In this document: positions 30,866-54,706 of the stretch, piece by piece | How positions within the stretch are numbered: position 1 is the first letter of the stretch | How the letters are laid out: every line of letters starts with the position of its first letter | Assembly: GCF_002237555.1 (NCBI RefSeq) | Contig: NZ_CP022540.1 | Coordinates: forward strand, 3,973,001 to 4,037,000 | Origin: Antarctobacter heliothermus | GTDB taxonomy: Bacteria > Pseudomonadota > Alphaproteobacteria > Rhodobacterales > Rhodobacteraceae | Direction: 5' to 3' | Length of the DNA stretch: 64,000 bases | The notes under the pieces: generated by a model | What the model was told of the DNA's origin: nothing | Databases searched by the model: none | Seen by the model: only the letters and a program-made list of their open reading frames with translations | Translations under genes and position numbers: made by a program

Positions 30866-32077
30866 TCAGGCTGCCATTCTCATTGGTTCGGTTTTGCTGG
30901 CATGGACCTCGTCAGGGGTCAAGATGCCGTGGGTCGAGTGCGGCCGCTCAGCGCTGTAGTACGCCAGCCATTTTCGGATACCGGCCTTCGCCTCTGTTCC
31001 CGTTTCAAAAGCGTGCAGATAAACGCATTCGTACTTCAGAGTCCGCCACAGGCGCTCGATCATCCTGTTGTCGATCCAGCGTCCTTTGCCGTCCATGCTG
31101 ATCTTGATCTTTGCGTCGCTCAGGACCTCGATCCAGTCTGCGCTGGTGAACTGGCTGCCCTGGTCGGTATAGAAGATTTCCGGCTTGCGGTGTTTGGCTA
31201 ACGCTTCCTCTAAGGCATCCACAAAAAAGTCTGCCTCCAGCGTGTTTGACAGCCGCCACGCCAGCACCTTACGGCTGTACCAGCCCATGATCGCCACCAA
31301 ATTCAGGAAGCCTCGGCGCATCGGAATGTAGGTAATGTCGGCACACCAGACTTGGTTTGGCCGGTCGATCACCATTCCCCTCAGCAGATACGGCCAGATC
31401 TCGTCCTGAGGGTGTTTCTTACTGGTGTTGGGTTCCTGGTAGATCGGCACCAGCCGCATGAGGCGCATCAACCGCCGCACCCGAGGCCGCCCGCACTTGT
31501 GACCTTGGCACTGCATATACCGGGCCATTCACTGACCGACAGGGTATTTCCGCAGCAAATGTCCCGAAAGGTTTCCGGGATCCGTACCACGGCGTTTCCA
31601 GGAACTGTCGATCAAAAATTGCCATGAACTGCAAGTTCTCGGTGCTCTCGCCCTTCGGCTGATAATACAGGTTAGACCGCGTCAACGTCAGCAACGCACA
31701 CAGATGTCGAACGCTCAGATTGTGATCCGTGCTCACCATTTTTTGCCCCGCGTCCCGAGCAGTTGAACCGAGGCATCCATTGCCCGGCAATGCATGCTAG
31801 CATGCATGAGACGGGACCAAAAATTCCGCTCGACAACAAGCTGCCCGATCTTGGAGTACAACTTCTCGATCTCGACCGTATTAGCAGGAGCCGGATCGGC
31901 CCCTCGCCGTTTAAACGCAGACACCATGTTTTGAATCGCCGCTCGTTTTCACGTGCTGATCTGGGTCGCGTGTACGCCGTATTTCTTCGAGAGCTCCGCC
32001 AGCATCATCTCCTCGTGGATCGCCTCAAGCGCAACTTTGGCCTCGAACTCGGGCGAATAGTTCTTTCTCTTCGTCAT
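30866..32077 (-). pseudogene. IS3-family transposase (OrfA/OrfB), broken
   Basis: OrfA starts at ATG 32077 (MTKRKNYSPEFEAKVALEAI, helix-turn-helix) but reads TGA where HATQIST is normally followed by Trp. It then resumes with KRAAIQNMVSAFKRRGADP. A short palindromic insert lies near the OrfA/OrfB junction. OrfB (MVSTDHNLSVRHLCALLTL onward) shifts frame after FLETPWYGSR and resumes at MARYMQCQGHKCGR. The DDE core is recognisable (CADITYIPM, FYTDQGSQF, NRMIERLWRTLKYE). With one stop and at least one frameshift this copy cannot make an active enzyme. Confidence 0.88.
31778..31815 (-). repeat. 38-nt double-hairpin mini-element inside the IS3 transposase
   Basis: On the plus strand CATTGC-CCG-GCAATG (31778-31792) overlaps an 18-bp perfect palindrome ATGCATGCTAGCATGCAT (31790-31807), followed by GAGACGGG. 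The first 18 bases differ from the mini-element at 53855 only by a paired T-A to C-G change in the stem. It lies at the OrfA/OrfB junction in the same sense relative to the gene as the other copies. Confidence 0.65.
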
Positions 32078-32143
32078 CTTGGATCGTGTCTCTCGTCAAG
32101 CGATCCATCTTAACAACTGGTCCGAAATCCTGCGACCACCTCT

Positions 32144-32624
32144 AAGGGCTCGGCGGGACGGCGGTGACTTGCCGTTCGCTTTGGACAGCGGAAAAACCGA
32201 AAAATGAACATTTCTGGATCGGACGACTTGAGGTGGAAATCTGCATAATCTCCTGACGAATAGCGCATTCGACAATAGGAATGATCGCGTCGTCTGGCTC
32301 TTCGCTGCGGGGTGCAAATGCGTCTATTACACACGCCTGCGCTCTGACCTGAAACACCACCGCATCGCGGGATGCCCAAGAGTCGTTCAACACACTAGCG
32401 ACTTCCAAACGGACAAGATGGCCGTCACGCTTACGCAAATGGTCTGCGGCCATCACCCCGCCCATGTATCACTCGTTCATCGTCGTCGCCACGAGGCACA
32501 TGGGCTTGTTGCCCGGGCTCAAATAAATTGGGTGCACGTCGGTAGGCACAATTTCTGCTTGATTGCCCACCGTCAGCTTCCTTGTAGGGGCCATCAGATC
32601 GTTGGCGCACACGTCTTCGCAAGG
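32144..32624. other. Eroded DNA, possible gene remnant on the minus strand
   Basis: 481 bp between the IS3 element and the regulator gene. A minus-strand frame reads VPTDVHPIYLSPGNKPM, has a stop, then continues through LVRLEVASVLNDSW and IDAFAPRSEEPDDA. This looks like coding sequence with a nonsense mutation, but I do not recognise the family. Confidence 0.35.
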
Positions 32625-34226
32625 TCAAACGATGGCAGTCACGCGACTGCACTCGATTAGGTTGGTGCGATGCACAAGCGAGGCGGGATAGGTCTTGTCC
32701 TCGAACATGCGTAGGGGCGAAAAATCAGGTTCGAGACGTTTCAGGCGGTCGGAGAAATGAACAGCAGAGTCTTCTCTGCCCTCCGTGGCGTTGAGGGCCA
32801 GGAGGTATCGCAGTGGCGGGCGGAAACTTGGCCGCACGAGTGTCACCGTCTCGAGGAGCGATTGCGCCTCTTCTTTTCTTCCGAGAACCATGGCTGTCGC
32901 GGCCAGTTGAAGATCCCAGAAAAACTGGCGTTTTGAGTGCATGACAATCCGACGGCCACGCGTGGCATCGCGATAGGCGCCGACGGCATCACCGTTATAA
33001 AGGCGCGCTGAACTGGCCGCCCAGACGGCCATTGCATTCGCTGAATTGCGCTCAAGACTGCTTTGCGCGAAATGTAGGCTGGCCGCGGGATCATTAAACA
33101 GAAACAGGCTGGCATTCCCCAAGAGAGCAAGGATCATCGAGTTTTCACCGCCCGTTTCCACCGCATATGCGGCAAAGGCTTTTCCTTCGTCGCGTAGTCT
33201 TTTTTCATCCGAGACATGGCGTTCCAGCCGCTGGATCGTGCGGATCTGAAGCCGCCATGCCAAATACAAAGGCGATGGACGCATCTCATAGGCGGAGGCA
33301 AGAAGGGCGTCCGCATCGGCGATTTCGACGGCATCCATGGAGAATATTTTGTCGATTGCAAGACGCATCAGAGCATCGGCTCTGTCCGTACTGCTTTCGG
33401 GGCGGGTTCGGTCTATCGCGACGGCATCGACAGCCCTGCTGACCAAGCGCAGGACTTCAAGCTCGTCCACCGGAGGTCCGCCATGCACGCTGGCGCGGCA
33501 GCGCCCGGACCAAATCTGTCGGCGCGACAGTCCGTCGATTGCTGCCAAGCGAATACCGATACTATCGGGACTGATATGCAGGCAGTCGAGTTCGAGGGCG
33601 ATCTGTCCAACTTCGACTGAGGGCGTTTGTCCCGGGCTATGGCGGAACACATCGATGTGGGCGCATTCGGACAGGCTCTGAAACAAGCGGTCCGAGAGGA
33701 CCTGGGCGGTCCAGTCCGCCATGTCCGTCCCATCTCCGCGACACGTCAAAATGACCCCATCGCGACCGAGGGGCGCCTGTCTCGCGCCGTTATCAATGAA
33801 TACTTCGGACACCGGTGCACGGGGGGTCCGATTGCGCCGAACACGCTGTTCGGCCAGCCATAGGTCGAACTCGGGATCACGAATATCGAGGCCTTCAGCA
33901 AATTCTAGGGACGTATCTTCCTCGAGAATGATCCTGCTGGTATCGAGCGAGACATTCCTGTGATTGGACTTCAGGATGTCCTTGTGTTGTCCGAGACTTT
34001 TGCGGATGACCGAAAGAGTTTGCCGCAGGCTGGCCGATCCCTGTCGAGCGGAACGGTCACTCCAGAGACGATCCTGAAGCCATGAACGTCCGCGTGATCC
34101 ATCGGGGCCTGATAGAAGAAGTAATAGAAGCCCCTGTGCCTTGGAAAGAGGCGGTGTCAAATCTTCTCCGCTTTCCGTCAAGATGCGGAACGATCCGTGA
34201 ATCCTAATATTCAATTCAGGTGTCAC
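32625..34226 (-). CDS. SARP-like regulator: winged helix, TolB-like region, TPR-like repeats
   Basis: 533 residues. Residues 1-100 form an OmpR/SARP-type DNA-binding domain (LNIRIHGSFRIL, LSKAQGLLLLLLSGPDGSRG, LQDRLWSDRSARQGSASLRQ). Residues about 155-270 (VLSDRLFQSLSECAHIDVFR, ALELDCLHIS, RQIWSGRCRAS) resemble the TolB/FlgO-like sensor region found between winged helices and TPRs in adenylate-cyclase-like regulators. Residues 280-510 are helical TPR-like repeats. There is no receiver domain and no membrane helix. Divergent from the PAP2/subtilase pair across 192 bp, so it most likely controls them. What it senses is unknown. Confidence 0.82.
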   Translation of the reverse strand: MTPELNIRIHGSFRILTESGEDLTPPLSKAQGLLLLLLSGPDGSRGRSWLQDRLWSDRSARQGSASLRQTLSVIRKSLGQHKDILKSNHRNVSLDTSRIILEEDTSLEFAEGLDIRDPEFDLWLAEQRVRRNRTPRAPVSEVFIDNGARQAPLGRDGVILTCRGDGTDMADWTAQVLSDRLFQSLSECAHIDVFRHSPGQTPSVEVGQIALELDCLHISPDSIGIRLAAIDGLSRRQIWSGRCRASVHGGPPVDELEVLRLVSRAVDAVAIDRTRPESSTDRADALMRLAIDKIFSMDAVEIADADALLASAYEMRPSPLYLAWRLQIRTIQRLERHVSDEKRLRDEGKAFAAYAVETGGENSMILALLGNASLFLFNDPAASLHFAQSSLERNSANAMAVWAASSARLYNGDAVGAYRDATRGRRIVMHSKRQFFWDLQLAATAMVLGRKEEAQSLLETVTLVRPSFRPPLRYLLALNATEGREDSAVHFSDRLKRLEPDFSPLRMFEDKTYPASLVHRTNLIECSRVTAIV

Positions 34227-34418
34227 AGAGATGCCTCTTGGGTCGATTAAGTCGCCAGTGAAATGTCCTTACCCGCGGGTGGCATTGGCCCCCATCTGCC
34301 TATTTTCCACAAATTATGGTAACTTAATCGTAATTTATGAGTCGTTTCGACGCAAGCTTGTTGTCAGATCTTTCGTGACGGCACTTAGCTAACGCAAATG
34401 CTTTGTTAGGAGAAAGCT

Positions 34419-35645
34419 ATGACGTCCTATGGTGGTGCAGGCGGCGGAGCCGGAGGCGGTGCTGGCGGAGGGGCCGGAGGTGGCGCAGGTGGAGGAGCCG
34501 GGGGCGGTGCCGGAGGAACGGGGTCCGATGTTGGACTCTATGGGGCCGAAACGTTTCTCAAAAGTCACGCCGGCAGCCCGCCCTCACCGCTACTCAGCAG
34601 CGCGCTGATCCTGTCGCAAGACGCGACCGTGTCGTATTGGGACGGAGAGTCCACGCTGACACCCACGGAGCATTCCGCAAGCCTAATGGCCTATCTCAAA
34701 GAGGTTCGGATGCCGACGCAGGCCCTGATCCTCGACTGCCATGTCCGCAACCTGATTGGTGTCGAATGGAGCATCGCGGAGACGATTGCCGACGATGGTA
34801 ACGGCGACGACGAAGAAGCGGCTGCAGAGGATGATTTCGACGGCAATTGCGAATCCATTGTATCTCCCGTCATAAAAATGACCGTCAGAAAACCGAAAGA
34901 TTCGGCATCCGGACAAGCGGACATCCTGACCGTCGCGACGGTCACCAAGCCGGATCCCGATTACTTCGAGAAAGACCTGCATTGGCTGCGGAACTATAGC
35001 GACCTGCGCAGCGACAGACTTGCCGAGATCTACCACCAGACCGGGGACATCATTTCCTTCTTCGGGGCCTTGGGCTTTCTGGACAATGGTCGCCGGAAGT
35101 ATACGCTTTTGTTGCTGGAAGCCGTGCGGTCAGTGGCGGTTCATGTGGAAACGCTCGCCAAGTTTATCGGGCGCCAGAAACGCCCCATCGATTACGCCAT
35201 GGAGGTACAGCCGATGATCCAGACGCCGGATCATTCGTCTTTCCCCTCCGGTCACGCGCTGGAGGCCTTTGCCATTGCGACAGTGCTACATCGTCTGTCC
35301 GACACAGGCAGTGCAGTCGACGGCATCCGTGACAACGCGCGACCCTTTCTCCTCGCGCATCGGATTTCCACGAACCGCACGGTGGCCGGAGTGCATTTCC
35401 CGGTGGATTCGCTTGCCGGAGCGTTCCTTGGCCTGCATTTGGGCGAGCTGATCCACTCAATAGCGACGGGGACGAACATCCAACTCGGGGAACTGGGCAA
35501 GCCGACTACGCCGGTCGACGAGGAGAAGACGGAAGACTTCCTGCTGTCGAGCTTCTTAACCCATCTGGGAAGCCCGGTCGACGGCGGCACCCAATCTGAC
35601 GAACTGGTGGCTTGGTTCTGGGACAAGGCCCGACAGGAATGGTGA
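34419..35645 (+). CDS. Soluble PAP2/vanadium-haloperoxidase-like protein with Gly/Ala repeat N-terminus
   Basis: 408 residues behind AGGAGAAAGCT. Residues 5-33 are repeats of Gly-Gly-Ala-Gly. The C-terminal half has the complete acid phosphatase / vanadium haloperoxidase site: Lys248-x6-Arg255-Pro256, Pro276-Ser277-Gly278-His279 and Arg320-x5-His326-x3-Asp330. No signal peptide or convincing transmembrane helix is seen, which favours a soluble vanadium-haloperoxidase-like enzyme over a membrane lipid phosphatase. An acidic stretch (125-143) separates the halves. The subtilase gene follows 51 bp later on the same strand. The actual reaction (haloperoxidation or phosphate hydrolysis) is unknown. 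Confidence 0.85.
   Translation: MTSYGGAGGGAGGGAGGGAGGGAGGGAGGGAGGTGSDVGLYGAETFLKSHAGSPPSPLLSSALILSQDATVSYWDGESTLTPTEHSASLMAYLKEVRMPTQALILDCHVRNLIGVEWSIAETIADDGNGDDEEAAAEDDFDGNCESIVSPVIKMTVRKPKDSASGQADILTVATVTKPDPDYFEKDLHWLRNYSDLRSDRLAEIYHQTGDIISFFGALGFLDNGRRKYTLLLLEAVRSVAVHVETLAKFIGRQKRPIDYAMEVQPMIQTPDHSSFPSGHALEAFAIATVLHRLSDTGSAVDGIRDNARPFLLAHRISTNRTVAGVHFPVDSLAGAFLGLHLGELIHSIATGTNIQLGELGKPTTPVDEEKTEDFLLSSFLTHLGSPVDGGTQSDELVAWFWDKARQEW
34431..34517 (+). repeat. 12-bp coding tandem repeat (Gly-Gly-Ala-Gly)n
   Basis: About seven units encode GGAG with varied synonymous codons (GGC, GGA, GGT, GGG; GCA, GCC, GCT). The codon diversity suggests selection at the protein level rather than recent slippage. 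It forms a flexible or adhesive N-terminal tail on the PAP2-like protein. Confidence 0.85.
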
Positions 35646-35696
35646 TCGCCAACACTTCGTTTGGGGATGGCCGGGTCGAAAGCAAAGGATGCAAGC

Positions 35697-37793
35697 ATGT
35701 CTGAATTCAAGAAGGATAATGGTTGGAATGCCACGCGGGAGACGCCCTATGTCAACTGGTGGGGTATCGTGGACGGACAGCTTCCGGCGAATTTCAGGGA
35801 TTTCGACGAAGCGGGGGAGGGAATCTTCTTCGACCCCGGCAGGCTGGTCGACCGGATCGAGAGGCTGCGCTCGCCGGATCGCGAAACCTTCAGGTTCTCA
35901 AAAGAAATGAAACAGATACTTGAGAAATTCGGCCGAGGTTCTCTGGTGCCACTGCCCAAGGACAGCAAGAACCCCCACTGGCCCAATGATCCTGACAAAC
36001 TTCCCGACTGGATCACACCAGAGGTGATGGACCGCCTGCCGGACGACGTGCCAAACGATGCCGTCATCGTCGGCGTGATCGATACCGGAGTGGCACTCGG
36101 GCATCGGGCCTTTCGTCTGGGCAATGGCGAAACCCGCGTCATATCCGCGTGGCAGCAGACCGCTGAATTCCATCACCAGTCGGCGGTCTACCTGCCGTTC
36201 GGCGACGAATGGTTCGCCGGTGATATCAATGGAAAGCTGCGTGACCACTCCCTCAATCGCAACCTTTACGACAGGCTGGACGAAGACGCATTCAATCGCG
36301 CCTTGCGGCTGGTCGAACCGCAACGCATCCGGGGACACCGCGATCTGGATCATCGCGCCGCCCATGGCACCCACATCATGGACATTGCCGCCGGAGGCGA
36401 TCCAGCCAGCTTTGCGGATGCCGAAAGGCTACGCATGATCGTGGTCAACCTGCCCACACAGTATCTGCACGGATATGCTGGCAATTTCCTTGAATTCTTC
36501 GCAGGTTACGCCGTCGTGCGCGTATTTCACCTCGCCGAGGCGCTTTGGAGAAAGAACAATCCCGAACGTTCGGGCGGCTACCCGGTGGCGCTGAACTTCG
36601 CCTATGGAATGATGGGGGGTCCCAAGGACGGATCGCGGATGCTTGAGAAGCTGATGGACCTCTTTGTGACCAAGCGGAAGGAAGCTGGTCTGCCGACCAG
36701 CATCTGCATGCCGGCCGGGAATGAGAACCTTGCAAAGTCGGTTGCGCGCGTCCAAACCGAGCCAGACTGTTGGTCCGATCCGATCCCCTGGCGCATCCTG
36801 CCCTCTGACCGAACGTCAAACCATCTGGAGTTCTGGTTCACCGCAACGACAAACTCTCTAAAGGACGATTTGGACCAATACGCGTTCAAGATCACGACAC
36901 CTACGGGCGACCATTCCGAAATCTCCGCGCCCCGGCATGGTGCCTATGCCGACCTGCCCGGGGGATTTGCGCGGCTCTACTGCCTTCTTCATCCAACTGA
37001 AGATGATGCCACCCATGTCCATTTCATGCTTGCGATATCACCGACGCTGATCATCGAACGCGATGCAGAGCGCGGCGCACAGGTCGTGGCGGCACCTGCG
37101 GGCATCTGGACGATCGAGGTCCGCTCGCCGCGCCCGTCAGAGCTGACCGTGTATGTCCAGTCCGATCAATCGGCAAAGGTCCAGAGCAATGCCGGATTGC
37201 GATCCTACCTGGATCACTCATGCTACAAGCCTTACCTTCCCAATGGACGCATTCGCGATACATATTCCTACCAACTTGGGTCTTCCGAAATGCCAGTGGA
37301 TCAGGAAGAGCCTGACGCCTTTGTGACCCGGAAAGGCTCGCACAACGCTCTGGCGACGACCACGTCGATTAGCGCGCTTGCAGGTTTTCGGCGCAGCGAT
37401 GGAAGGCCTGCGGCGTATTCGGCCACATCGTTTCCGCCGCGCTGTCCGTGTGTCCACGAAATACAGGCGGCTTATCCGACGGATGACAGCCCGGCGCTGT
37501 ACGGGGTACTGGCCGCCGGCGCGCGAGACGGTTCTTCGGTTGCCTTTCGCGGAACCAGCATGGCGGCCGCCATGGCGACAAGGGCAGCCGCAAACGCAAT
37601 GCTGGATTGGACGCAGGCGGGAAATTGCGCTCACTTGGGAAACAGCGACTGGCACGACCGGGAAGGGGCTGCCGGGGAACTCGACATTGCAAGAACACAT
37701 CCATATTTCGGCATGACGATGGCCGACAAGACCGGCAGAGGCCGGGTCCTTTCACAGGAACATCATCGCCTCTGGCGCAAGGCGCCGCGCTGA
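35697..37793 (+). CDS. S8-family subtilisin-like serine protease, no visible signal peptide
   Basis: 698 residues from ATG 35697 (AAAGGA upstream). The catalytic triad is clear: Asp129 in VIVGVIDTGVALGHR, His223 in DHRAAHGTHIMDIAAGG and Ser621 in SSVAFRGTSMAAAMA; the oxyanion Asn342 is in MPAGNEN. The Ser lies nearly 400 residues after the His because of a large insert (about 360-600) with beta-rich segments. The first 120 residues are not a signal peptide or a typical inhibitor prodomain. Second gene of the PAP2-subtilase pair, whose product may be its substrate or partner (inference). A terminator follows. Confidence 0.9.
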   Translation: MSEFKKDNGWNATRETPYVNWWGIVDGQLPANFRDFDEAGEGIFFDPGRLVDRIERLRSPDRETFRFSKEMKQILEKFGRGSLVPLPKDSKNPHWPNDPDKLPDWITPEVMDRLPDDVPNDAVIVGVIDTGVALGHRAFRLGNGETRVISAWQQTAEFHHQSAVYLPFGDEWFAGDINGKLRDHSLNRNLYDRLDEDAFNRALRLVEPQRIRGHRDLDHRAAHGTHIMDIAAGGDPASFADAERLRMIVVNLPTQYLHGYAGNFLEFFAGYAVVRVFHLAEALWRKNNPERSGGYPVALNFAYGMMGGPKDGSRMLEKLMDLFVTKRKEAGLPTSICMPAGNENLAKSVARVQTEPDCWSDPIPWRILPSDRTSNHLEFWFTATTNSLKDDLDQYAFKITTPTGDHSEISAPRHGAYADLPGGFARLYCLLHPTEDDATHVHFMLAISPTLIIERDAERGAQVVAAPAGIWTIEVRSPRPSELTVYVQSDQSAKVQSNAGLRSYLDHSCYKPYLPNGRIRDTYSYQLGSSEMPVDQEEPDAFVTRKGSHNALATTTSISALAGFRRSDGRPAAYSATSFPPRCPCVHEIQAAYPTDDSPALYGVLAAGARDGSSVAFRGTSMAAAMATRAAANAMLDWTQAGNCAHLGNSDWHDREGAAGELDIARTHPYFGMTMADKTGRGRVLSQEHHRLWRKAPR

Positions 37794-37823
37794 ACGCAAT
37801 CCGGCCTCATAAGGCCCATGTCG

Positions 37824-37845
37824 AAGGGGGCCGTGCGGCCCCCTT
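37824..37845. terminator. Bidirectional terminator hairpin
   Basis: AAGGGGGCC, loop GTGC, GGCCCCCTT: a 9-bp perfect stem with A/T ends on both sides, between the convergent subtilase and small periplasmic-protein genes. Confidence 0.8.
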
Positions 37846-37869
37846 CCGTGATCATGCCATTTCGAACGG

Positions 37870-38139
37870 TCACTGACTCGACTTGGTTACGGTGTCGAGC
37901 GTGCCCAAGCGACGCGCCTCTGTCTGTATTTTCCGCCAGAAATCTGCTTTCTGGCGATCAATCAGTTCGATGCGAACCGCGGCGTCGTCCCCAGCATGCT
38001 GGATTTGAACGAGTTCGCCCAGCGTATAGACACCCGGCTCGACCTTAAGCTCTTTCTCCATGAACTCGATGGTCGGGTTTGCGCTTGCCGGAATGGCCAT
38101 CCAGGTTACTAATGTGAAAATTGCAGCAGTCTTTAACAT
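37870..38139 (-). CDS. Small periplasmic hypothetical protein
   Basis: 89 residues from ATG 38139, behind TGGAGGATGCAAG. A Sec signal peptide (MLKTAAIFTLVTWMAIPASA) is followed by a 69-residue mature part with KVEPGVYTLGELVQIQHAGD and a basic C-terminus. The family is not recognised; similar small exported proteins occur in Rhodobacterales. Convergent with the subtilase gene. It may be unrelated to that locus. Confidence 0.72.
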   Translation of the reverse strand: MLKTAAIFTLVTWMAIPASANPTIEFMEKELKVEPGVYTLGELVQIQHAGDDAAVRIELIDRQKADFWRKIQTEARRLGTLDTVTKSSQ

Positions 38140-38884
38140 CTTGCATCCTCCAAAATTATCGATGTCCCGGAACAGCCCGGGATGAATCCAAACTACTGCC
38201 ATGTCGCAATCGAACCGTGATGCACGAGCAATTTTATTGTAACTTCTGGGTCTTGGAGGAACTATTGGTAAACATTGGCAGGTGCCCAACACTGGAGTGG
38301 AGACCGCACCCCTTGGCCCGCTCGCACCCAGACAACATTGGTGTCGAATGCCCGAACCGCCGAACGTGGTTGTGAACTGACAAATGTGCCGCAATGGACA
38401 GCCAAGCAACACCCGCTTTTTGCGACGGTCAGCTTTCAGAACGTTCGAGCGCGGGCCTGACTGTTCAGTTTGCAGGGCTTGGGTCGCGCAGCTGTCTCGA
38501 ACTGCGCAGTGCTAAAGTGATTGTCATGTTGCGGGACAGCGACATCCGCTGAATCATCTCCGACCGGGGAAGCATGATGTAAAAACGACGCCAACGAGTA
38601 TCTCGGCTACGCGCCCTCCATTGGGATGAACTCTGCCCAACTGCTTGTCAGCTTCCAACTATTTCGTTCGATTACTTCGCATCCACAGCGAGCGACCGTT
38701 TTCCGAACGGATTTTCGATGCGGGCCGTAGCGCACTTGTGGCGATCCTGCGGTGGCGGTCACAGATTGAGCTCTTTGTTGCCGTTCGCTGCCGTTTAAAG
38801 TGTCACGTGCTGCCGGACGTCCGCTTTCTCATACGGTGAATCTAAACTTCGCGCCCGCAGTGAATGACTGCCTCCCGCCGATGC
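38140..38884. other. Intergenic, no intact gene
   Basis: 745 bp between the small exported-protein gene and the truncated IS1182 copy. It contains that gene's promoter and short open frames such as the one near 38590 (NEYLGYAPSIGMNSAQLL) that I cannot assign. Base composition is lower in GC than the flanks, so this is likely eroded accessory DNA. Confidence 0.4.
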
Positions 38885-38959
38885 TGTTGAAAAAGTCTTT
38901 GTTGCAGTGCGGCAAGTCCTTTGATTCACTGGATTATGAGGGGATTGGAGGATTTCGTC

Positions 38960-40201
38960 ATGATGGGCATCCAAACGGCACCGGCACAGTTGTTCTATGT
39001 CTTCGATCTGGAGCGTCATGTTCCTTCCGGTCATATGCTTCGCGAGATCGACCGGTTCCTCGACGTGGATGGCATGCGGGAAGTCGTGCGCCCGTTCTAC
39101 AGCCACATGGGGCGTCCCTCGATCGATCCTGAGCTGATCATCCGGATGCTGGTCATCGGTTATGTCATGGGAATCCGTTCAGAGCGGCGCCTTTGCGATG
39201 AGGTCCATCTGAACCTTGCATACCGCTGGTTTTGCCGTTTGGGTCTGGAAGGGAAGGTGCCGGATCATTCGACCTTTTCCCGGTATCGTCATGGCAAGTT
39301 CCGTGACAGTGATCTGCTCCGGAAGGTATTCGAGGCAACTGTCGAACGCTGCCTGAGAGAGGATCTGGTCGCGGGTGAAGGATTGGCCGTCGACGCAAGC
39401 CTGATCCCGGCTGACGCCAATAAGGTCCGGTCTATTGCGGCCGAAGACTGGAGCCCGGAGGTCGCGCGCGAGGCCGGAAACCGGGCGGCACGCGAATATC
39501 TGGAAACACTCGACGATGCCGCCTTCGGAGCCGCATCACCGGTCCAGCCGAAGTCGTGACCAGGTCCGATCCGGCTGCGCAATGGACCCGCGCCTAGGAA
39601 AGCCGCCCGTATTTTGCCTATGCGACCAACTACCTGATCGACACCAAGAGCTCGGTCATCATGGATGTTGAGGCGACACGGGCAATCCGGCAGGCTGAGG
39701 TTGGGGCGTCGCGCACGATGCTCGACAGAACCGAGAAACGGTTCGGGATCAGACCGGATTGGCTGACTGCCCCTCTCGTGACATCGCTGCGCGATGCACT
39801 GCCGGGCAGTGGACACCGCCTACGGCAATGCCGAGAACCTTGGATGGCTGGTCGAGAAGCGCAGCATCATCCCCTTCATCCCTGTCATCGACAAATCAGA
39901 GCGGACCGATGGCACCTGGTCCAGGTCCGACTTCGAATGGGACGAGGCGAATGATCAATACATCTGCCCCGAGGGTCACGCCCTCAAGCAATATCGCCGG
40001 AACTACTCCGATCCGAACCGGGGGCAGGACACCGGAGGGCGGAAGAAATATCGTGCCTTGAAGGCGACATGCCAAGCCTGTCCATCCAAAGAAATCTGCT
40101 GCCCGAAAGCGGAGGCCCGATACGTCACCCGAGAACCCCACGAGGAAGCACGCGAGTTCGCCCGCGAATGCCGCAAGACCAAGGCCTACAAGGTATCCCG
40201 A
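38960..40201 (+). pseudogene. IS1182-family transposase, multiply broken, copy A1
   Basis: Reads from ATG 38960 (MMGIQTAPAQLFYVFDLERH) through the DUF772 domain (RMLVIGYVMGIRSERRLCDE, PDHSTFSRYRHGKFRDS). It then meets a frameshift at PVQPKS (39558), a TAG at about 39596, and a 40-nt insert at 39772 that breaks WLTA from DTAYGN. DDE-domain parts (YATNYLIDTKSSVIMDVEA, DFEWDEANDQYICPEGH) are visible in other frames. The 3' end is missing. It has the same defects as copy A2. Confidence 0.88.
39772..39811 (+). repeat. 40-nt double-hairpin mini-element in IS1182 copy A1
   Basis: Starts CCTCTCGTGA, contains CATCGC-TGC-GCGATG and then CACTGC-CGG-GCAGTG. It sits exactly between the codons for Ala and Asp of WLTA/DTAYG, as judged from the uninterrupted paralogue at 52.5 kb. 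Its 40-nt length shifts the frame by one. Confidence 0.75.
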
Positions 40202-40277
40202 CCGGACATGTCGGGAAGTGGAAAAACACGGGGAGTCCTGTCCACCACCTTAGATCCCGGCAGCGCGCGTGTTCAGA

Positions 40278-40817
40278 TTAGTCGCGAATGACCCACTGCT
40301 TGAAGGCCGGCTCCAACTCGTCGCAGGCCGCGACAAGAAGATCGCGCGATTGGAAGGGGCCGGCGTCGTCGATGGTTGGCGCGACGGTCACGCATTGCGC
40401 CGCGGCCGCGGCCAGACGGATCTCCAACGTGGTCTCGTCATAGGTGAACAGTTGCGTCTCATCGGCAGCGTCGCAGGCGATCAGGCCAAAGGGATTCTCT
40501 GCATCGTCTGGCGCATTGTAGGCCATGCATTTGTCGGCATAGGTCGCCGATTTGATCATGCCGGTCTCGGGCGCAAAGGAAAACAGCACGTCGTCTCCGG
40601 TCGGCTTGCAGGAATGGGTGTGCAGCCGGTCGCTTTCGCCGCGCCCTTCAGTGTCGATGCACCAGCCGAGACTGGCCTCTTCACCCAGGTTATCGGCAAG
40701 GTGGATAATCGGCCCGACGGTCTGGATGCTCGGCGCTTCGGCCAGAAGGGTTTGCGGTAGGGCAAAGCTCAACGCTGCGGCGAATGATACAGTGTAAACA
40801 GAAGTTCTATTTTTCAT
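40278..40817 (-). CDS. Exported ricin-B-lectin-like protein
   Basis: 179 residues from ATG 40817 (AAAGGACTACTC upstream). Signal peptide MKNRTSVYTVSFAAALSFAL ending before AEAPS. The mature domain has paired cysteines (GWCIDTEG, HSCKPT, KCMAYNAP, IACDAADET, QCVTVAP, AACDE) and a Q-x-W-like ending (KQWVIRD), suggesting a beta-trefoil carbohydrate-binding module. Secreted or periplasmic; binding target unknown. The truncated IS1182 copy ends 76 bp past its stop, so the neighbourhood has been rearranged. Confidence 0.7.
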   Translation of the reverse strand: MKNRTSVYTVSFAAALSFALPQTLLAEAPSIQTVGPIIHLADNLGEEASLGWCIDTEGRGESDRLHTHSCKPTGDDVLFSFAPETGMIKSATYADKCMAYNAPDDAENPFGLIACDAADETQLFTYDETTLEIRLAAAAAQCVTVAPTIDDAGPFQSRDLLVAACDELEPAFKQWVIRD

Positions 40818-41850: not shown

Positions 41851-41926
41851 AGGTTATCAGGTCCTTCACTACCCAAGTTCGTTGTCTGGCCAGTCTACCA
41901 TCCGATCAGGCGTTATCGCGGGCCGG

Positions 41927-46389: not shown

Positions 46390-46392
46390 GTA

Positions 46393-47571
46393 TCAGTCCT
46401 CCACGGCGGGAGTGTCGGCGTTGCGCGCGATGCCGTTGTCATCAATGATCGCGGCGACCGGCGTCACGGCCTGTCCCGGCCGGAGCGAGGACAGCCCATC
46501 CACGATCAGCCGATCGCCCTCGCTCAACCCCGAGCGCACGATCCATGCGTTTTCATAGCTTCCGTCGTCTTCCAGTGTGACCTGCTGCGCGGTGCCGTCT
46601 TCACCCACGATATAGGCCGTCAACTTGCCCGAGTTTCCCCGCGTGGCCGCCCGTTGCGGTACGAGAAAAGCCTGCATCGTGCCGATCACAACCTCCCCCC
46701 GCACGAACATCCCTGGGATGACCACATGATCGGGATTGTCAAATTTGAACCGGATGGTCACGGTGCCGGTCGTGGTCGAGACCGTGTTGCCGGCGGTGAC
46801 CAACTTGCCAACACCTCGAAACACCTCTTCGTTTTCAAGCATCAAGGTCGCCTCAAGTGCGTCGTTCTGCTTGAGCGCACCTTCGGCAATGCCCTTGCGG
46901 ACCGACAGAATGCGCGCGCTGGCCTCTACCGTGTCCACATAGATCGGATCGGCCTGTACGATAGTGGTCAAGGCGTCAGCCTGCCCCGCAGTCACAAGAT
47001 CACCAACAGACACGGTCGCAACATCGGCACGCCCGGCAATCGGGCTTTTCACCGTGGTCCATGACAGTTCGATTTGTGCATAGTCCAGCGCAGCCTGCGC
47101 CGCGTCCAGCGTCGCCTTGGCCTCGGCCAGACTTGCGCGCGCGGCTTCAACCTCGGCCTCTGTATAGCCGCGACCGGCCAACTGCTCAGCGCGATCATAG
47201 GCGGACTGCGTCACCGCGAGGTTCGCCTCGGCCATCGCCACATTCGCCCGCGCCGTGGCCTCTGCCGCAACATAAGCGGAATCGTCGATCCGGAACAGCG
47301 GGTCGCCAACCTGAAGAAGCTGATCCGGCGTATAAAGAACCTCTTCGATAACGCCGCCCACACGCGGGCGCACCGCAACTTCCTGAAACGCGACAGCTCG
47401 ACCCGGCGAGGTCACAACACGCGGAACATCTTGCAGTGTCAGTTCAACGACACCGACCTCGAGCGGCCCCATGTCCATGCCACCCGGCGGACCGAATTGC
47501 GCATTTGCAATCGTCGCAGACCCCGTCAGCGCGAGAACCGCACCCATCATTTTCCAAACGCTGACTTTCAT
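46393..47571 (-). CDS. RND periplasmic adaptor (membrane fusion protein, AcrA-like)
   Basis: 392 residues with a cleavable signal peptide (ending ATIANAQ) rather than a lipobox. Lipoyl half-motifs (VRPRVGGVIEEVLYTPDQLL and TVKSPIAGRADVATVSVGDL) flank a helical hairpin (about 100-160, ANVAMAEANLAVTQSAYDRA). A beta-barrel and membrane-proximal domain follow (NSGKLTAYIVGEDGTAQQVT). First gene of the efflux operon, divergent from a TetR gene 69 bp away. Confidence 0.94.
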   Translation of the reverse strand: MKVSVWKMMGAVLALTGSATIANAQFGPPGGMDMGPLEVGVVELTLQDVPRVVTSPGRAVAFQEVAVRPRVGGVIEEVLYTPDQLLQVGDPLFRIDDSAYVAAEATARANVAMAEANLAVTQSAYDRAEQLAGRGYTEAEVEAARASLAEAKATLDAAQAALDYAQIELSWTTVKSPIAGRADVATVSVGDLVTAGQADALTTIVQADPIYVDTVEASARILSVRKGIAEGALKQNDALEATLMLENEEVFRGVGKLVTAGNTVSTTTGTVTIRFKFDNPDHVVIPGMFVRGEVVIGTMQAFLVPQRAATRGNSGKLTAYIVGEDGTAQQVTLEDDGSYENAWIVRSGLSEGDRLIVDGLSSLRPGQAVTPVAAIIDDNGIARNADTPAVED

Positions 47572-47623
47572 TCGATTCTCGATCCTTGACTATCCGGCGA
47601 TTTTGATGCCTGATACGCAAACA

Positions 47624-47638
47624 TTGCACACTATGCAA
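47624..47638. promoter_or_regulatory. Inverted repeat, candidate TetR operator
   Basis: TTGCA-CACTA-TGCAA, a perfect 5-bp dyad in the 69-bp space between the adaptor and TetR genes. A TTGACT-N19-TGATAC element just upstream may be the tetR promoter, placing the dyad near +1. It would let the regulator repress both directions. Confidence 0.55.
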
Positions 47639-47640
47639 GA

Positions 47641-48240
47641 ATGTGGAAAATGACAGTTTCGTTACGAGAGAGACGAAGGCAACAGACCGCCCGCGATATT
47701 CAGATGGCAACACTGGAACTGGCGGTTCAGCACGGGCTGGATAAGGTCACCACCGAAGAGATCGCCGAGTTGGCAGGCGTCAGCACGCGAACCTTCTTCA
47801 ATTATTACACAAACAAGGAAGCCGCCGCTGTTGGCGCTCCGCCGCCCTTCCGGGAGACGGACAAGGAGGCGTTATGCGCAGGCGTCGGCACCCTGGCGGA
47901 AGATGCCAAACGGTTTCTGGACCGCTACATGGAGTATTTGGTCAGGGATGAGCCCATCATCAGGAAGATTGGGGGCGTTCTGCAATCAAACGAGAAGGCG
48001 CGCGGCATCCTCGATGGAATCCTGATGATGCAACGCAGAGAACTCACGGATTGTTTGTGCAAGCGCGTTCACGATCGTCAAGCCGCTGGCGCGCTCGCCA
48101 GTGCAATGACTGGTGCGATAGGGCGGGCGATTTTCCTGTGGAACAATGAGGAAAACCTCTCACTTAATGCGGCGCTGGACATCGTATGGGACGGCCTGAT
48201 CGAAGCCTCGAACATTTTGGCGTCGACTTGGAGGGACTGA
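47641..48240 (+). CDS. TetR-family transcriptional regulator
   Basis: 199 residues (196 if ATG 47650 is used). N-terminal helix-turn-helix (RDIQMATLELAVQHGLDKVT, TEEIAELAGVSTRTFFNYYT, NKEAA) is typical. The C-terminal ligand domain is unassigned. The ATG at 47641 lies only 3 bp from the proposed operator, so 47650 may be the real start. It is divergent from the RND operon and probably represses it, releasing on binding of a pump substrate. Confidence 0.92.
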   Translation: MWKMTVSLRERRRQQTARDIQMATLELAVQHGLDKVTTEEIAELAGVSTRTFFNYYTNKEAAAVGAPPPFRETDKEALCAGVGTLAEDAKRFLDRYMEYLVRDEPIIRKIGGVLQSNEKARGILDGILMMQRRELTDCLCKRVHDRQAAGALASAMTGAIGRAIFLWNNEENLSLNAALDIVWDGLIEASNILASTWRD

Positions 48241-49027
48241 TAAATCGGCCGACGCGCCCTTGTCTGGATGACATTATGGTTGTTGATCAACCTCTGGGTG
48301 CCGGAAAGCATGAACGACCGGTCTGGTGACGCTGCGCTGCGGCGAGAACCGTCACTCTCTTAGGCCGCTGAGGGCCGTTCCGCAACGACGTGACGTGGGT
48401 AGACCGGTCATGCTATTGCGAAACGGAGAAGGGTAGCAGAGAGCCCAATTCGACGAATGCTGCACTTGAAAGTCTGTTGCTTGCTTTTGACCTGAACCCG
48501 AAGTCTGATCCAGCTTTGCGCGCAGGCTTTGGGGTTGTGCTGAGCTACCTAAATCGTCCCCGTTCGGGGCTGGGCTGTCCGGACTTTTGGACGGGCTCTG
48601 CACAAATTTGGACGAGATTTAGGGGCTTTGAGCACAGTAAATCTTTGAAACGATTTAGGAGGCACAAGGCCAAGCTACAGAATGGCTCTGGACTTACAAA
48701 AACGAGCAACCAGCATGGGCATTGGCGGCTTCACACCCGCAATGAAGCTGAAAATGGCTGCGTAAGTTCTACGACCAAATCCCGTTAAAATCGGGAGGAT
48801 TACCACCCCTGGAAGGTCGATCATGGTCTCGGACATCGTGCTCTCCTTCATTGTCATCGGTCTTTGAACAACCTCAGACTACGAAGAAGCGCGGTGGCCG
48901 CCAGCCGCGCCGCGCGCTGCGCCAATGGCTTCGCGCGCGGCCTGCTACACCATCCCCCGAGGCACCACCCTTTCCTGCAGGGCCTTCATGGTATAGGAGG
49001 CCAGTCGGCATTGAGAAAAGCAGGTTT
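48241..49027. other. Intergenic, no gene recognised
   Basis: 787 bp between the TetR and desaturase genes. The desaturase frame is open upstream to 48851, but that stretch reads as arginine/proline-rich noise. No tRNA, repeat or clear promoter stands out. Confidence 0.45.
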
Positions 49028-50062
49028 ATGTTCGACAATTCTGAGAATTCTGAGCAACCCCAAGAAACGCGCGCGTCGAAAGACTGGGTCAAGGTACTTT
49101 CAAACTACCGCGAACCCAGCTCTTATCGCAGCGCGTACGAACTTGTAGTCACCGTCGGACCTTTCCTTCTTTTGTGGAGCATCGCGTGGTGGTCTTTGTC
49201 GGTCAGCTACTGGCTTACCTTCGCAATTTCCCTGGTCAACGCAGCCTTTCTTTTACGCCTTTTTGCCATCCAGCACGACTGCGGGCACGGGGCGTTTTTC
49301 AAGAATCGGACTGTCGGCGATTGGCTCGGGCGGGTGCTGGGCGTGCTGACCCTGACGCCCTATGATGTCTGGCGGCGAACGCATTCAATTCACCACAGCT
49401 CCTCCGGGAACCTCGGGCGGCGCGGGATTGGCGATATTCACACATTGACGGTCGCGGAGTACCAGGATCTGACGCCGCTCAACCGCTTGATGTACCGGCT
49501 TTACCGAAACCCCATAGTGTTATTTGGTTTCGGCCCGGGATACCTGTTCCTTTTTCAAAATCGCTTGCCTTTGGGCCTCATGGCCAGTGCCCGGTATTGG
49601 GTCAGTGCCATGGCCACCAATGCAGCTATCCTTGTTGGGTTGCTGATCATCATGTATTTTGGCGGCTTGATGCCGATCCTGCTGATCTTCCTGCCCACGA
49701 CACTTCTGGCGGCAACCGCGGGGATGTGGCTCTTTTACGTGCAGCATCAATTTGAGGACACGCATTGGGACGTCGAAGACGACTGGCAACTGCATGACGC
49801 CGCTCTTCGAGGCAGTTCGCATTACGTGCTTCCGCCGTTGCTGCAATGGCTGAGCGCCAATATCGGAATTCACCATGTCCATCACCTTTATAGCCGTATT
49901 CCGTTCTATCGACTGACCGAGGTGCTGCGCGATCACGCGGAACTTGCCGACGGCAATCGGATGACGATCAGGGAAAGCCTTGGGAACGCACGACTGCATC
50001 TCTGGGATGAAAGGACTCAACGTCTGCTGTCGTTTTCGCAGGCTCAAGCTCGTTATCGCTAA
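49028..50062 (+). CDS. Membrane fatty acid desaturase
   Basis: 344 residues from ATG 49028. The three histidine boxes of acyl-lipid desaturases are present: HDCGHG, HSIHHSS and HHVHHL. Two pairs of membrane helices (FLLLWSIAWWSLSVSYWLTF; VGLLIIMYFGGLMPILLIFL) hold the di-iron site on the cytoplasmic face. It is closest in outline to DesA-like delta-12/omega-type desaturases. It introduces a double bond into membrane acyl chains, useful in cold or solvent stress. Its location between the efflux operon and an IS110 element suggests mobile-element-associated cargo, but it is intact. Confidence 0.92.
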   Translation: MFDNSENSEQPQETRASKDWVKVLSNYREPSSYRSAYELVVTVGPFLLLWSIAWWSLSVSYWLTFAISLVNAAFLLRLFAIQHDCGHGAFFKNRTVGDWLGRVLGVLTLTPYDVWRRTHSIHHSSSGNLGRRGIGDIHTLTVAEYQDLTPLNRLMYRLYRNPIVLFGFGPGYLFLFQNRLPLGLMASARYWVSAMATNAAILVGLLIIMYFGGLMPILLIFLPTTLLAATAGMWLFYVQHQFEDTHWDVEDDWQLHDAALRGSSHYVLPPLLQWLSANIGIHHVHHLYSRIPFYRLTEVLRDHAELADGNRMTIRESLGNARLHLWDERTQRLLSFSQAQARYR

Positions 50063-50266
50063 GTCAGAGAAGGTCAGGCGCCAGATTCGTGAGATGCCCT
50101 TCGAAGCCAATATTTTCCATTGGGATGAAGGATGGCGCGCGATGCAAGAAAGTCAGTAATATATCGGACACTTCCTGTTCACAAGCAGCTCAAAATTGCT
50201 GCTGCGGCGAATGGCCGGTCTGGTGAAGCTGCACCGCAGCGCTCGGCCACGAGGCGAACGGCATCT

Positions 50267-51607
50267 GTGGGTGGCTCCTGCATTGCAAGAGTTTTCTGGT
50301 GATTTTTGCGGTCGTTTTTGTCAGTACTGTCGTCTGTTCGGCCTGTTTATGCGGTGGTGTTCCGCTGGCCTTGATGAATTCCGCGAGCGAGGTTCCAATC
50401 GGCTCATCGGCCTCGAAGGGCCGCTGCCATTCCCGGAGTGTCCTTGCTCTTGGTTGACTTACTTCCGCATCATCACTTCAACGTCTTGCATCTCTTGGCG
50501 GCTGGCGCGGTCAGAACGCGGGCTGCCGGTATTCCTGTTTCTTTGTCAGCATCGCCCAGATGCCCCGTGCCGCTTTGTTCGCCATGGCGGTCGTTGCCAA
50601 TCGAAATGGCTTGTCTGCAATGATCTTCGCCGTCCACAGATCAACCTTTTCCGGCGCACGTTTCGCCATCACCGCGCGCGATGTCATGCCGACGACCAGA
50701 AGCTTGCGAATGTAGCGGTCACCCTGCTTGGTGATCTTGCCAAGACGTTCCTTGCCGCCGCTGGATTTGTTGAGCGGGGTGAGCCCAAGCCACGCCGCCA
50801 GGTCACGTCCGGTTCGGAACTGTTTTGCATCGCCAATCGTTGCGACAATCGCTGACGCCGTGATCGGCCCGATGCCAGGCATGCGCATCAATCGGCGTGC
50901 GTCTGCACTCAGCAGGGCATGTTGCTCGATCATCTTCGAATAGCCTTCGATGCGTTCGTTCAGGCCAATGAACTGATAGCATTGGATACCGAGCATGCCG
51001 TTGGCGATCTCGGGCATGTCCGGGTGATCGCCAGCCAGGTGACGCTTCGCGAAAGCTGTCACCGCTTCGATCCCGATCGGCAGGATATGCCCAAACTCGC
51101 GCAAGAGGCTGCGTAACATATTGGCCAGTTGGGTGCGCTGCCGGACGGCCAGGTCGCGGGTCCGATGGAGTGAAAGGATAGCCTGCTGTTCCTCCGTTTT
51201 GATCTCGACGAAGCGCATGGTCGGGCGGCGGACCGCTTCACAGATCGCCTCCGCATCCACGGCGTCGTTCTTGCCGCGCTTCACATAGGGTTTGACGTAT
51301 CCGGCGGGCATGAGCTTTACGTCGTGACCAAGCTTGCGCAGCTGGCGTCCCCAGTGATGGGACGATCCGCAGGCTTCCATTCCGACCGTGCAAGGTGGCA
51401 GCGTCTCAAAGAATGCGAGCAACTTCGCGCGTTTGATGGCCTTATTGAAGATCACGCGGCCGTTCTCCGAAATGCCGTGCACCTGAAAAACGTCCTTGGC
51501 CAGATCGAGGCCGACTGTCTTTACTGTCATTGGGTGGCTCCTTTCCTTGCAGTCGTTGACAACTGCACTTTGGCACATTCGATGCCGGTGGAGCAGGAGC
51601 CACCCAC
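50267..51607 (-). mobile_element. IS110-family element, IS1111 group
   Basis: A 15-bp perfect inverted repeat GTGGGTGGCTCCTGC (50267-50281) and GCAGGAGCCACCCAC (51593-51607) brackets one intact transposase gene. Inverted repeats near the ends identify the IS1111 subgroup. True ends may lie a few bases outside. Confidence 0.85.
50511..51530 (-). CDS. IS110-family transposase (IS1111 group)
   Basis: 339 residues from ATG 51530 (GGAGCCACCCA upstream). The N-terminal DEDD RuvC-like domain starts VGLDLAKDVFQVHGI and has GKNDAVDAEAICEA. The C-terminal helix-hairpin-helix Transposase_20 domain has MRMPGIGPITASAIVATIGD, AAWLGLTPLNKSSGGKERLG and GDRYIRKLL. Intact, so probably still able to move its own copies. 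Confidence 0.93.
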   Translation of the reverse strand: MTVKTVGLDLAKDVFQVHGISENGRVIFNKAIKRAKLLAFFETLPPCTVGMEACGSSHHWGRQLRKLGHDVKLMPAGYVKPYVKRGKNDAVDAEAICEAVRRPTMRFVEIKTEEQQAILSLHRTRDLAVRQRTQLANMLRSLLREFGHILPIGIEAVTAFAKRHLAGDHPDMPEIANGMLGIQCYQFIGLNERIEGYSKMIEQHALLSADARRLMRMPGIGPITASAIVATIGDAKQFRTGRDLAAWLGLTPLNKSSGGKERLGKITKQGDRYIRKLLVVGMTSRAVMAKRAPEKVDLWTAKIIADKPFRLATTAMANKAARGIWAMLTKKQEYRQPAF

Positions 51608-51701
51608 CTCATCCGCTTCGGGCGGATTTTATTGAAAAGCTCTTTCTTGATCGAAGTCTGAACTGCTGATTCAATTCCTGTAATCGAGGGGGGGACCGGC
51701 G

Positions 51702-53085
51702 ATGATGGGGCCGAGGCAGGAAGCGCAACCGGCGCTGTTCTACGAGTTCTCGCTTGAGGACCATGTCCCACGGGATCATCTGCTGCGCTCCATCGACCGG
51801 TTCGTCGATCTTGGCGGCATCCGCAGGCATTTTGCGGAGTTCTACAGCCACACGGGCCGCCCCACCGTCGATCCCGACCTGCTAATCCGCATGCTCCTGG
51901 TCGGCTATTGCTTCGGCATCCGGTCGGAACGGCGGCTATGCGAAGAGGTGCATCTGAACCTGGCGTATCGTTGGTTTTGCCGTCTCGATCTGGGCGACCG
52001 TGTCCCGGACCATTCCACCTTCTCGAAGAACCGGCATGGCCGCTTCCGCGACAGCGAATTGCTGCGCCACCTGTTCGAGATGACCGTCGCACGCTGCATT
52101 GAAGAGGGATTGGTCAGCGGTCAGCGCATGGCGATTGATGCGAGCTTGATCGAGGCGGATGCCAACAAGCAGAACTCGACGTCGAAGGAGGACTGGGACG
52201 TCTCGCAGATTGATCCAGCCGATGCGCCCCGCGCCGTGCGCGAGTATCTTGACACACTGGACGAGGCCGCCTTCGGCGCCGGCAAGCCAGTGCCTCTCGT
52301 GGCATTGCTTTGCAATGCACTGCCGGTAACAGACGGCAGCGCGCAAGGGACCGGCATTCTTCAGCTATTCCGACAACTACCTGATCGACACGGATCACGG
52401 CGTGATCGTCGATGTCGAGGCGACAAGATCAATCCGGCAAGCAGAACTCGGCTCGACCAAGACCATGCTGGATCGGGTGAGGACCAGGTTCGACCTGCAT
52501 CCCGAACGCCTGATCGCCGACACCGCGTATGGCACCGGCTCGATGCTGGGCTGGCGGGTCGACCGCAAGATCGCCCCGCACATCCCGGTCCTCGACAAGT
52601 CTGGCCGCAGCGATGGCACCTGGAGCCGGGCGGACTTCGAGTGGGACGCCGAGAAAGACCAATACGTCTGCCCTGAGGGCCAGACACTAAAGCAGATTCG
52701 TAGGAACTATTCCGACCCAAACCGGGGGCCAACCAATGGAGGTCGGGCCAAATACCGTGCCCTGAAACTGACCTGCCAGGCCTGCCCGTCGAAACAGAAA
52801 TGCTGCCCGAACGCCGATGCCAGATCCATCACCCGCGAGGAACACGAAGACGCCCGCCAAGTCGCGCGCGACATCGCCAAAACCAAGCAATACGACATCT
52901 CGATGAAGCTCCGAAAGAAGGTCGAGATGCTCGTCACACACCTCAAGCGCGTCCTCGGCCTCGGACGGCTCAGATTGCGCGGCCCATGCGGCGCAAATGA
53001 CGAATTCCTGCTCGCCGCCACCGCCCAGAACCTCCGCAAATTGGCGAAGATCTTTCCTGCACCGCAGCAAACGCGCCAAGCCTGA
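51702..53085 (+). pseudogene. IS1182-family transposase, copy B, interrupted by a 40-nt insert
   Basis: DUF772 region (RMLLVGYCFGIRSERRLCEE, PDHSTFSKNRHGRFRDSELL) in the first frame to GAGKPV at 52292. After removal of 52293-52332 the frame continues TAARKGPAFFSYSDNYLIDT, then DVEATRSIRQAELG, ADTAYGTGSM, DFEWDAEKDQYVCPEG and the C-terminal GRLRLRGPCGANDEFLLAAT. No other defect is seen, so this copy was active until the small insertion, or is still expressed if the insert is bypassed. Confidence 0.88.
52293..52332 (+). repeat. 40-nt double-hairpin mini-element in IS1182 copy B
   Basis: Starts CCTCTCGTGG, then CATTGC-TTT-GCAATG and CACTGCCGG. Compared with the A1 copy, the first stem has T-A where A1 has C-G. 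The second stem here is CTGCCG (52320) with CGGCAG (52334). Insertion position differs from A1/A2. Confidence 0.75.
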
Positions 53086-53281
53086 CGGAAAGGCACTCGC
53101 GCCGCTGTCGGATGCCAGGTTTCTGCGAAAGCGAACGAGTGCTTTTTCGCATAACCGGCGGATTTTGTTGAAAAAGTCGGCCTGAGAACGTGTTTTGGGC
53201 TGCCCTCATCCTCGAGTGTCACCGTTTGGTTCGGGCAATCGCCCGTCGCGCCGCCTTTTGGCGTTTATCTGGCCGCTTAGA

Positions 53282-54706
53282 TCATGCCGCGGCCTCCGAG
53301 TTGGCGCACTGCTGCCGCAGCTTCGCGAGTTTTCGGAGGTTCTGGGCGATGGCGGCGAGCAGGAATTCGTCCTTGGCGCCATTGGGGCCGCGCAGGCGTA
53401 GCCGGTTTAGGCCGAGGATGCGCTTCAGATGGGCGAAGAGCATCTCTACTTTCTTCCGCTTGTCTCGGGATACCTTGTAGGCCTTGGTCTTGCGGCATTC
53501 GCGGGCGAACTCGCGTGCTTCCTCGTGGGGTTCTCGGGTGACGTATCGGGCCTCCGCTTTCGGGCAGCAGATTTCTTTGGATGGACAGGCTTGGCATGTC
53601 GCCTTCAAGGCACGATATTTCTTCCGCCCTCCGGTGTCCTGCCCCCGGTTCGGATCGGAGTAGTTCCGGCGATATTGCTTGAGGGCGTGACCCTCGGGGC
53701 AGATGTATTGATCATTCGCCTCGTCCCATTCGAAGTCGGACCTGGACCAGGTGCCATCGGTCCGCTCTGATTTGTCGATGACAGGGATGAAGGGGATGAT
53801 GCTGCGCTTCTCGACCAGCCATCCAAGGTTCTCGGCATTGCCGTAGGCGGTGTCCACTGCCCGGCAGTGCATCGCGCAGCGATGTCACGAGAGGGGCAGT
53901 CAGCCAATCCGGTCTGATCCCGAACCGTTTCTCGGTTCTGTCGAGCATCGTGCGCGACGCCCCAACCTCAGCCTGCCGGATTGCCCGTGTCGCCTCAACA
54001 TCCATGATGACCGAGCTCTTGGTGTCGATCAGGTAGTTGGTCGCATAGGCAAAATACGGGCGGCTTTCCTAGGCGCGGGTCCATTGCGCAGCCGGATCGG
54101 ACCTGGTCACGACTTCGGCTGGACCGGTGATGCGGCTCCGAAGGCGGCATCGTCGAGTGTTTCCAGATATTCGCGTGCCGCCCGGTTTCCGGCCTCGCGC
54201 GCGACCTCCGGGCTCCAGTCTTCGGCCGCAATAGACCGGACCTTATTGGCGTCAGCCGGGATCAGGCTTGCGTCGACGGCCAATCCTTCACCCGCGACCA
54301 GATCCTCTCTCAGGCAGCGTTCGACAGTTGCCTCGAATACCTTCCGGAGCAGATCACTGTCACGGAACTTGCCATGACGATACCGGGAAAAGGTCGAATG
54401 ATCCGGCACCTTCCCTTCCAGACCCAAACGGCAAAACCAGCGGTATGCAAGGTTCAGATGGACCTCATCGCAAAGGCGCCGCTCTGAACGGATTCCCATG
54501 ACATAACCGATGACCAGCATCCGGATGATCAGCTCAGGATCGATCGAGGGACGCCCCATGTGGCTGTAGAACGGGCGCACGACTTCCCGCATGCCATCCA
54601 CGTCGAGGAACCGGTCGATCTCGCGAAGCATATGACCGGAAGGAACATGACGCTCCAGATCGAAGACATAGAACAACTGTGCCGGTGCCGTTTGGATGCC
54701 CATCAT
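53282..54706 (-). pseudogene. IS1182-family transposase, multiply broken, copy A2
   Basis: Translated segments are identical to copy A1: start MMGIQTAPAQLFYVFDLERH, frameshift after PVQPKS, a TAG downstream, and the 40-nt insert at 53855-53894. Unlike A1 it keeps the C-terminus (KKVEMLFAHLKRILGLNRLR, GPNGAKDEFLLAAIAQNLRK). It cannot encode a full enzyme, so the duplication needed another transposase or recombination. Confidence 0.88.
53855..53894 (-). repeat. 40-nt double-hairpin mini-element in IS1182 copy A2
   Basis: The same sequence as at 39772-39811, on the minus strand. Read on the plus strand it begins CACTGCCCGGCAGTGCAT, directly comparable with CATTGCCCGGCAATGCAT of the IS3 copy. 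Confidence 0.75.

Follow-up and report, generated by a model that had tools for sequence, protein, structure and literature searches.

Hairpin inserts of about 40 nucleotides recurring in insertion sequences of Antarctobacter heliothermus and other Rhodobacteraceae

The window analysed here, a 64,000-nucleotide (nt) stretch of the Antarctobacter heliothermus genome (contig NZ_CP022540.1, positions 3,973,001 to 4,037,000), contains several insertion sequences (IS) whose transposase genes carry members of a family of short hairpin inserts, for which we use the name F1. The initial annotation, made without database searches, had pointed to four such inserts; all of them were recovered and a fifth was added. 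Two identical copies lie in the two copies of an IS1182 element, A: one at 39772–39811 (plus strand, sense to the gene, 69.3 bits), set between the GCC and GAC codons of an ADTAYG motif that is uninterrupted in the relative L177, and the other at 53855–53894 (minus strand). A further IS1182 element, B, carries F1 at 52293–52332 (plus strand, sense, 59.1 bits), with a 3′ end off the consensus (GGTAACAG) and apparently in a position shared with Sulfitobacter indolifex (L180). The IS3 transposase region, taken approximately as the compared stretch 31000–32080 (minus strand), holds two copies, both on the minus strand and in sense orientation: a 38-nt one with a divergent hairpin at 31778–31815 (22.6 bits, covariance-model match at 31778–31813) and the newly found one at 31530–31571 (29.3 bits).

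IS1182 unit A occupies 53157–54781 (minus strand, 1625 bp) and adjoins unit B (51612–53156, plus strand). The genome has this B–A composite (51612–54781) at three locations, besides the defective A unit standing alone elsewhere. The other A copy in the window is truncated (38885–40201, plus strand; the L003 match converted to window coordinates). Copy A has been damaged outside F1 as well, by a 1-nt deletion and by a nonsense codon; copy B has a 42-nt in-frame deletion beside its insert.

Further copies were collected with a covariance model (R1) built from eight F1 sequences, all IS-borne; matches judged false or composite (L063, L071, L093, L095 and L106_1497) were removed before counting, and two of these, L071 and L093, adjoin rRNA/tRNA genes. 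The 364 instances collected in all, which include some genomic copies counted twice via two loci, span 33–44 nt, with 248 of exactly 40 nt. The ends are nearly invariant (CCTCTC at the 5′ side, CTGCCGGGCARNG at the 3′ side), and the interior forms a hairpin, frequently with a single bulged A, in which the sequence varies and the pairing is kept. Over 171 distinct 40-mers, the nine pairs of stem 1 are formed in 96% of cells, compared with 76% when one strand is shuffled among sequences and 29–49% when it is slid by 1–2 bases; 219 double changes and 21 single changes are still paired, and 65 cells are broken. The compensatory changes first proposed from four copies are therefore real. Of the two stems said to share a CAY arm, it is stem 1 to which the arm belongs, with the outer three pairs present in 98%; the second stem has its outer half, a competitor of stem 1, formed in 60% only. 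The inner half of the second stem is almost invariant and so gives no covariation signal either way. Single copies do not fold with unusual energy relative to shuffles (z −1.04 to 0.05 for four copies), so the case for F1 structure rests on covariation. A search of the window against Rfam at gathering cut-offs returned tRNA only and nothing matching F1.

Comparison with uninterrupted relatives reveals clean empty sites. Members of one IS5 group lack 41 nt at the F1 position, those of another IS5 group lack 39 nt at the insert position, and the IS3 relative L178 lacks both inserts of the window's IS3; inserts of about 37–42 nt are also recurrent in one IS3 group. No target duplication was seen at the empty sites examined in the IS5 groups and the window's IS3. 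Base composition around 123 distinct sites, a set without those flanked by fewer than 30 nt, differs clearly from background in two places only, a run of C to the left and GAYGR to the right. F1 insertions are precise, lie next to GAYGR and occur in either orientation. Ancestral coding sequence, which the inserts might have represented, is ruled out for the relatives examined, as these lack the segment. At two loci (L068 and L111) F1 stands, as judged by eye, at an apparent deletion junction.

The family extends well beyond the window. In the host genome (5.33 Mb), R1 found at least 37 matches at E ≤ 1, of which 33 reach E ≤ 0.01. At E 0.01, matches were obtained in 19 of 61 genomes, namely 17 of the 37 belonging to the host's family and two outside it, both weak; at a stricter cut, 78 of 295 family genomes, one per genus, were positive. 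Since scoring was limited to the top first-look candidates of each genome (150 in the host genome, about 108 in the 61 genomes and 22 in the 295), F1 copy numbers are lower bounds. The exact F1 pattern was found in at least 119 stretches of named genomes. Among the 80 matches listed, 79 have titles recognised as Rhodobacterales or stating Alphaproteobacteria; the remaining one, from Ignavibacteriales (L337), has flanks that read as a flagellar gene and was discarded as a chance match. Three viral contigs also match F1, and a 42-nt F1 query matched 110 plasmid records, mostly with roseobacter names. Dinoroseobacter shibae DFL 12 and Ruegeria pomeroyi DSS-3 are among the F1 carriers. Of the readings in the initial annotation, a structured, mobile family with compensatory changes that recurs in many other genomes is supported.

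Most F1 copies reside in IS, in line with the proposed targeting of these elements. Of the 123 distinct sites, 114 lie within IS (103 by transposase-fragment similarity or translation labels and 11 more by eye), three elsewhere, and six are undecided (L089, L094, L123, L188, L196 and L266). Labels in the transposase library were assigned by eye, and annotated references were included for IS5 and IS1182. The IS hosting F1 belong to IS3, IS5, IS6, IS21, IS30, IS66, IS91, IS110, IS256, IS481, IS630 and IS1182. The three other sites are a RelE-like gene (by eye), a DUF3768 gene and a region weakly matching ABC-transporter and LysR; the DUF3768 site is occupied in two genomes (L203:1501–1540 and L248:1001–1040), in the last codons of the gene and adjacent to a ParB-like gene. 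Among the 129 matches listed from the exact-pattern scan and the viral contigs, 120 are inside or at the end of IS (96 by library, 24 by eye), six are in a longer repeat and three are elsewhere (L337, L399 and L449). F1 explains many of the frameshifted transposase genes in roseobacters.

Taken with the precise insertion, these data make it probable that F1, about 40 nt long and non-coding, is a mobile element without autonomy which inserts next to GAYGR, mainly in IS, and hitchhikes there. It is best read as a mobile palindrome resembling repetitive extragenic palindromes (REPs) or miniature inverted-repeat transposable elements (MITEs), with IS as its main habitat; its repeated insertion, mostly into the movement genes of other jumping elements, gives it the look of a parasite living on other parasites. 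Under this scheme F1 would enter an IS and then travel with it; a recombinase acting in trans would move F1, probably as a folded single strand, and insertion itself may prefer IS DNA, for example during IS movement. Several points weigh against this account. Most IS labels were read from translations, with Pfam applied to ten pieces only; the IS share is a raw proportion of the collected sites; the IS-borne copies behind R1 may favour that subfamily; and a longer F1-bearing repeat is, judged by open frames, apparently intergenic or outside IS in some genera. In addition, the Y1_Tnp domain (PF01797), which would provide a candidate mover, is absent from 16 of 17 F1-carrier genomes in the family, G012 having one.

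The same observations could also arise from an ordinary REP/MITE-like repeat that inserts anywhere, is lost from working genes and is over-seen in IS through their multiplication and spread between genomes. Interrupted IS are indeed often multicopy, and sites outside IS exist (L057, L203/L248 and L218), as does the seemingly intergenic longer repeat. However, young copies with the exact consensus, at many separate sites, are nearly all in IS too, few F1 copies occur between genes, where tolerance would be expected, and several IS genes have 2–6 inserts. We consider this explanation unlikely.

Particular sites are used repeatedly. Identical 40-mers occupy the same codon of three IS5 genes (L019, L021 and L049), with a DNA similarity of 78% between two of them. 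Of 30 loci of one IS3 group, retrieved by orfA irrespective of inserts, 23 have a readable orfA/orfB junction, and five of these (L300, L312, L314, L316 and L328) have antisense F1 there; F1 is absent from the other 18, including a relative 92% identical in orfA. The same junction is occupied in five loci found through their inserts (L065, L100, L230, L249 and L244, the last from the same genome as L328), and the hairpins at this shared site differ between lineages. At the non-coding end of IS110 elements, F1 sits at one shared place in L349, L378, L437, L444 and L451, with the left flank CCGCTGGCCCTC.

The initial annotation had also raised translational bypass, and an intron-like element, cut from the transposase mRNA or passed over during translation, would belong to the same class of explanation. 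In its favour is genome G018, in which an IS3 with four inserts, leaving five open coding pieces, is present in six copies at ≥99% identity, three of them with 3-bp duplications. No uninterrupted copy was found in this genome, where a 310-nt fragment was the search's next hit. Many more interrupted IS have frames that are open except at their inserts, and others are further decayed. Yet F1 is antisense to the gene at 42 of 100 assigned sites and sense at 58 (including the RelE-like site), the four G018 inserts alternate in orientation, and F1 lengths cover all three reading frames; mixed orientation and lengths therefore disfavour bypass. No matching take-off and landing codons occur at the junctions inspected. 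Of the 15 variable coding sites among the six G018 copies, 12 are amino-acid changes, one of them in the first ATG, and IS1182 A copies have multiplied despite a common frameshift and nonsense codon. We rejected bypass and splicing on orientation, lengths and the absence of constraint among copies, and regard any such process as very improbable.

Interrupted IS without uninterrupted copies are found in other genomes as well. In G000, all six copies of IS1182 A and all three of B are interrupted, two B copies have an internal TAA, and beyond these copies a single match, a 46% relative, was obtained up to E 1e-10. In Dinoroseobacter shibae, an IS5 interrupted twice is present as three identical copies, and its apparently uninterrupted relatives are only 73–75% alike. 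Such multicopy elements could suggest that the inserts are silent, but this is weakened because the A copies share defects, the two IS3 copies compared in G104 have a common frameshift, and the G018 copies differ mostly by amino-acid changes. Movement of the interrupted IS in trans is the simpler reading.

Three further insert families were noted. F2 comprises 43–46-nt hairpins of the form GAGGAYC.GGAAA-hairpin-TTTCCC with compensatory stems, in IS3 genes (L322, L324, L244/L328 and L314; reference positions 259 and 597), one site being shared by three lineages; it gave no match in plasmids. A single IS3 gene, in L244, contains five F1 inserts and one F2. F3 (35–38 nt) occurs at reference position 735 in L302, L314 and L230, and reversed in L313; 3-bp direct repeats apparently flank three copies at one site. 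F4 is a 57-nt insert with two hairpins at the same site (reference position 962) in two genomes (L322 and L324).

A host or plasmid system that inserts hairpins to disable transposons would account for the variety of unrelated IS families hit, the use of either orientation, the reuse of sites and the presence of several inserts per gene. We hold such insertional silencing to be improbable, as some F1 copies lie at the non-coding IS110 end or outside IS, and no candidate genes turned up, although no search was aimed at them. A more speculative extension of the mobile-element interpretation, which we think doubtful, is a guild of hyperparasites, in which unrelated hairpin families of 35–57 nt (F1, and F2–F4 of one IS3 group) specialise in IS and their machinery recognises transposing DNA rather than an extended sequence; such cells would then possess a recombination route for marking or disabling transposons.

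Very small palindromic repeats have mostly been described from intergenic spaces, and some kinds have no known mover. GTAG REPs and REPINs are tiny hairpins without autonomy that Y1 transposases (REP-associated tyrosine transposases, RAYTs) probably mobilise in trans. F1 shares their size and lack of autonomy but shows no GTAG tag; a Y1/RAYT mover was rejected on the domain's near-absence from carriers noted above, and a now-lost enzyme of this type could still have acted. MITEs are likewise non-coding, non-autonomous and repeated, whereas F1 is much shorter and has neither terminal inverted repeats nor, at the empty sites examined, a target duplication. Mitochondrial byp elements are hairpins of about 40 nt within coding genes, several per gene; F1, in contrast, is found in sense as well as antisense, and no matching codons were seen at its ends in the junctions inspected.

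A close published comparison is with the CGTC-tagged REPs, which include Neisseria dRS3 and Rickettsia RPE-4/RPE-6. These are short palindromes with compensatory stems, many of them alphaproteobacterial and without a known transposase, and are defined by a terminal unpaired tag and an 8–9 bp stem starting with complementary AT (Di Nocera et al. 2013, PMC3733652). F1 resembles them as a short palindrome with compensatory stems, its other strand being preceded by CRTC, similar to the CGTC tag. However, this CRTC belongs to the flanking target, is variable and is absent from the element consensus; the F1 stem starts with G-C and its second pair varies; and F1 has the fixed ends given above and inhabits mainly IS genes rather than intergenic spaces. 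None of the Rhodobacterales genera searched for by name is mentioned in that paper, and literature searches listed no description of hairpin inserts in transposase genes of this bacterial group. F1 is REP-type in behaviour, yet it does not show those defining traits of CGTC REPs, of GTAG REPs or of MITEs that could be assessed, and its unusual part is the concentration in IS. It may offer a view of how transposons in turn fall prey to parasites or silencing, and its movement is testable in ordinary marine bacteria because the habitat is sharp, the motif short, empty sites are available and near-identical copies are many.

The exact F1 3′ end occurs 34 times in the host genome; among the 30 of these inspected for a longer version, only F1 elements and unrelated-looking sequence were seen. 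Other genomes contain a three-hairpin repeat of about 105–125 nt, in which an F1 core lies between two further hairpins with covarying outer stems (L348, L350, L369, L370, L384, L452–L458, L467, L468, L470 and L473). Five loci carrying it had no Rfam match up to E 0.1. A model of this repeat (R2), with the best 13 candidates per genome scored, matched 15 of 295 genomes at E 1e-6; of the 15 loci inspected, about eleven have the long form, the rest resembling ordinary F1 inserted in IS. The three-hairpin repeat may be an older form of F1, or a repeat that F1 entered.

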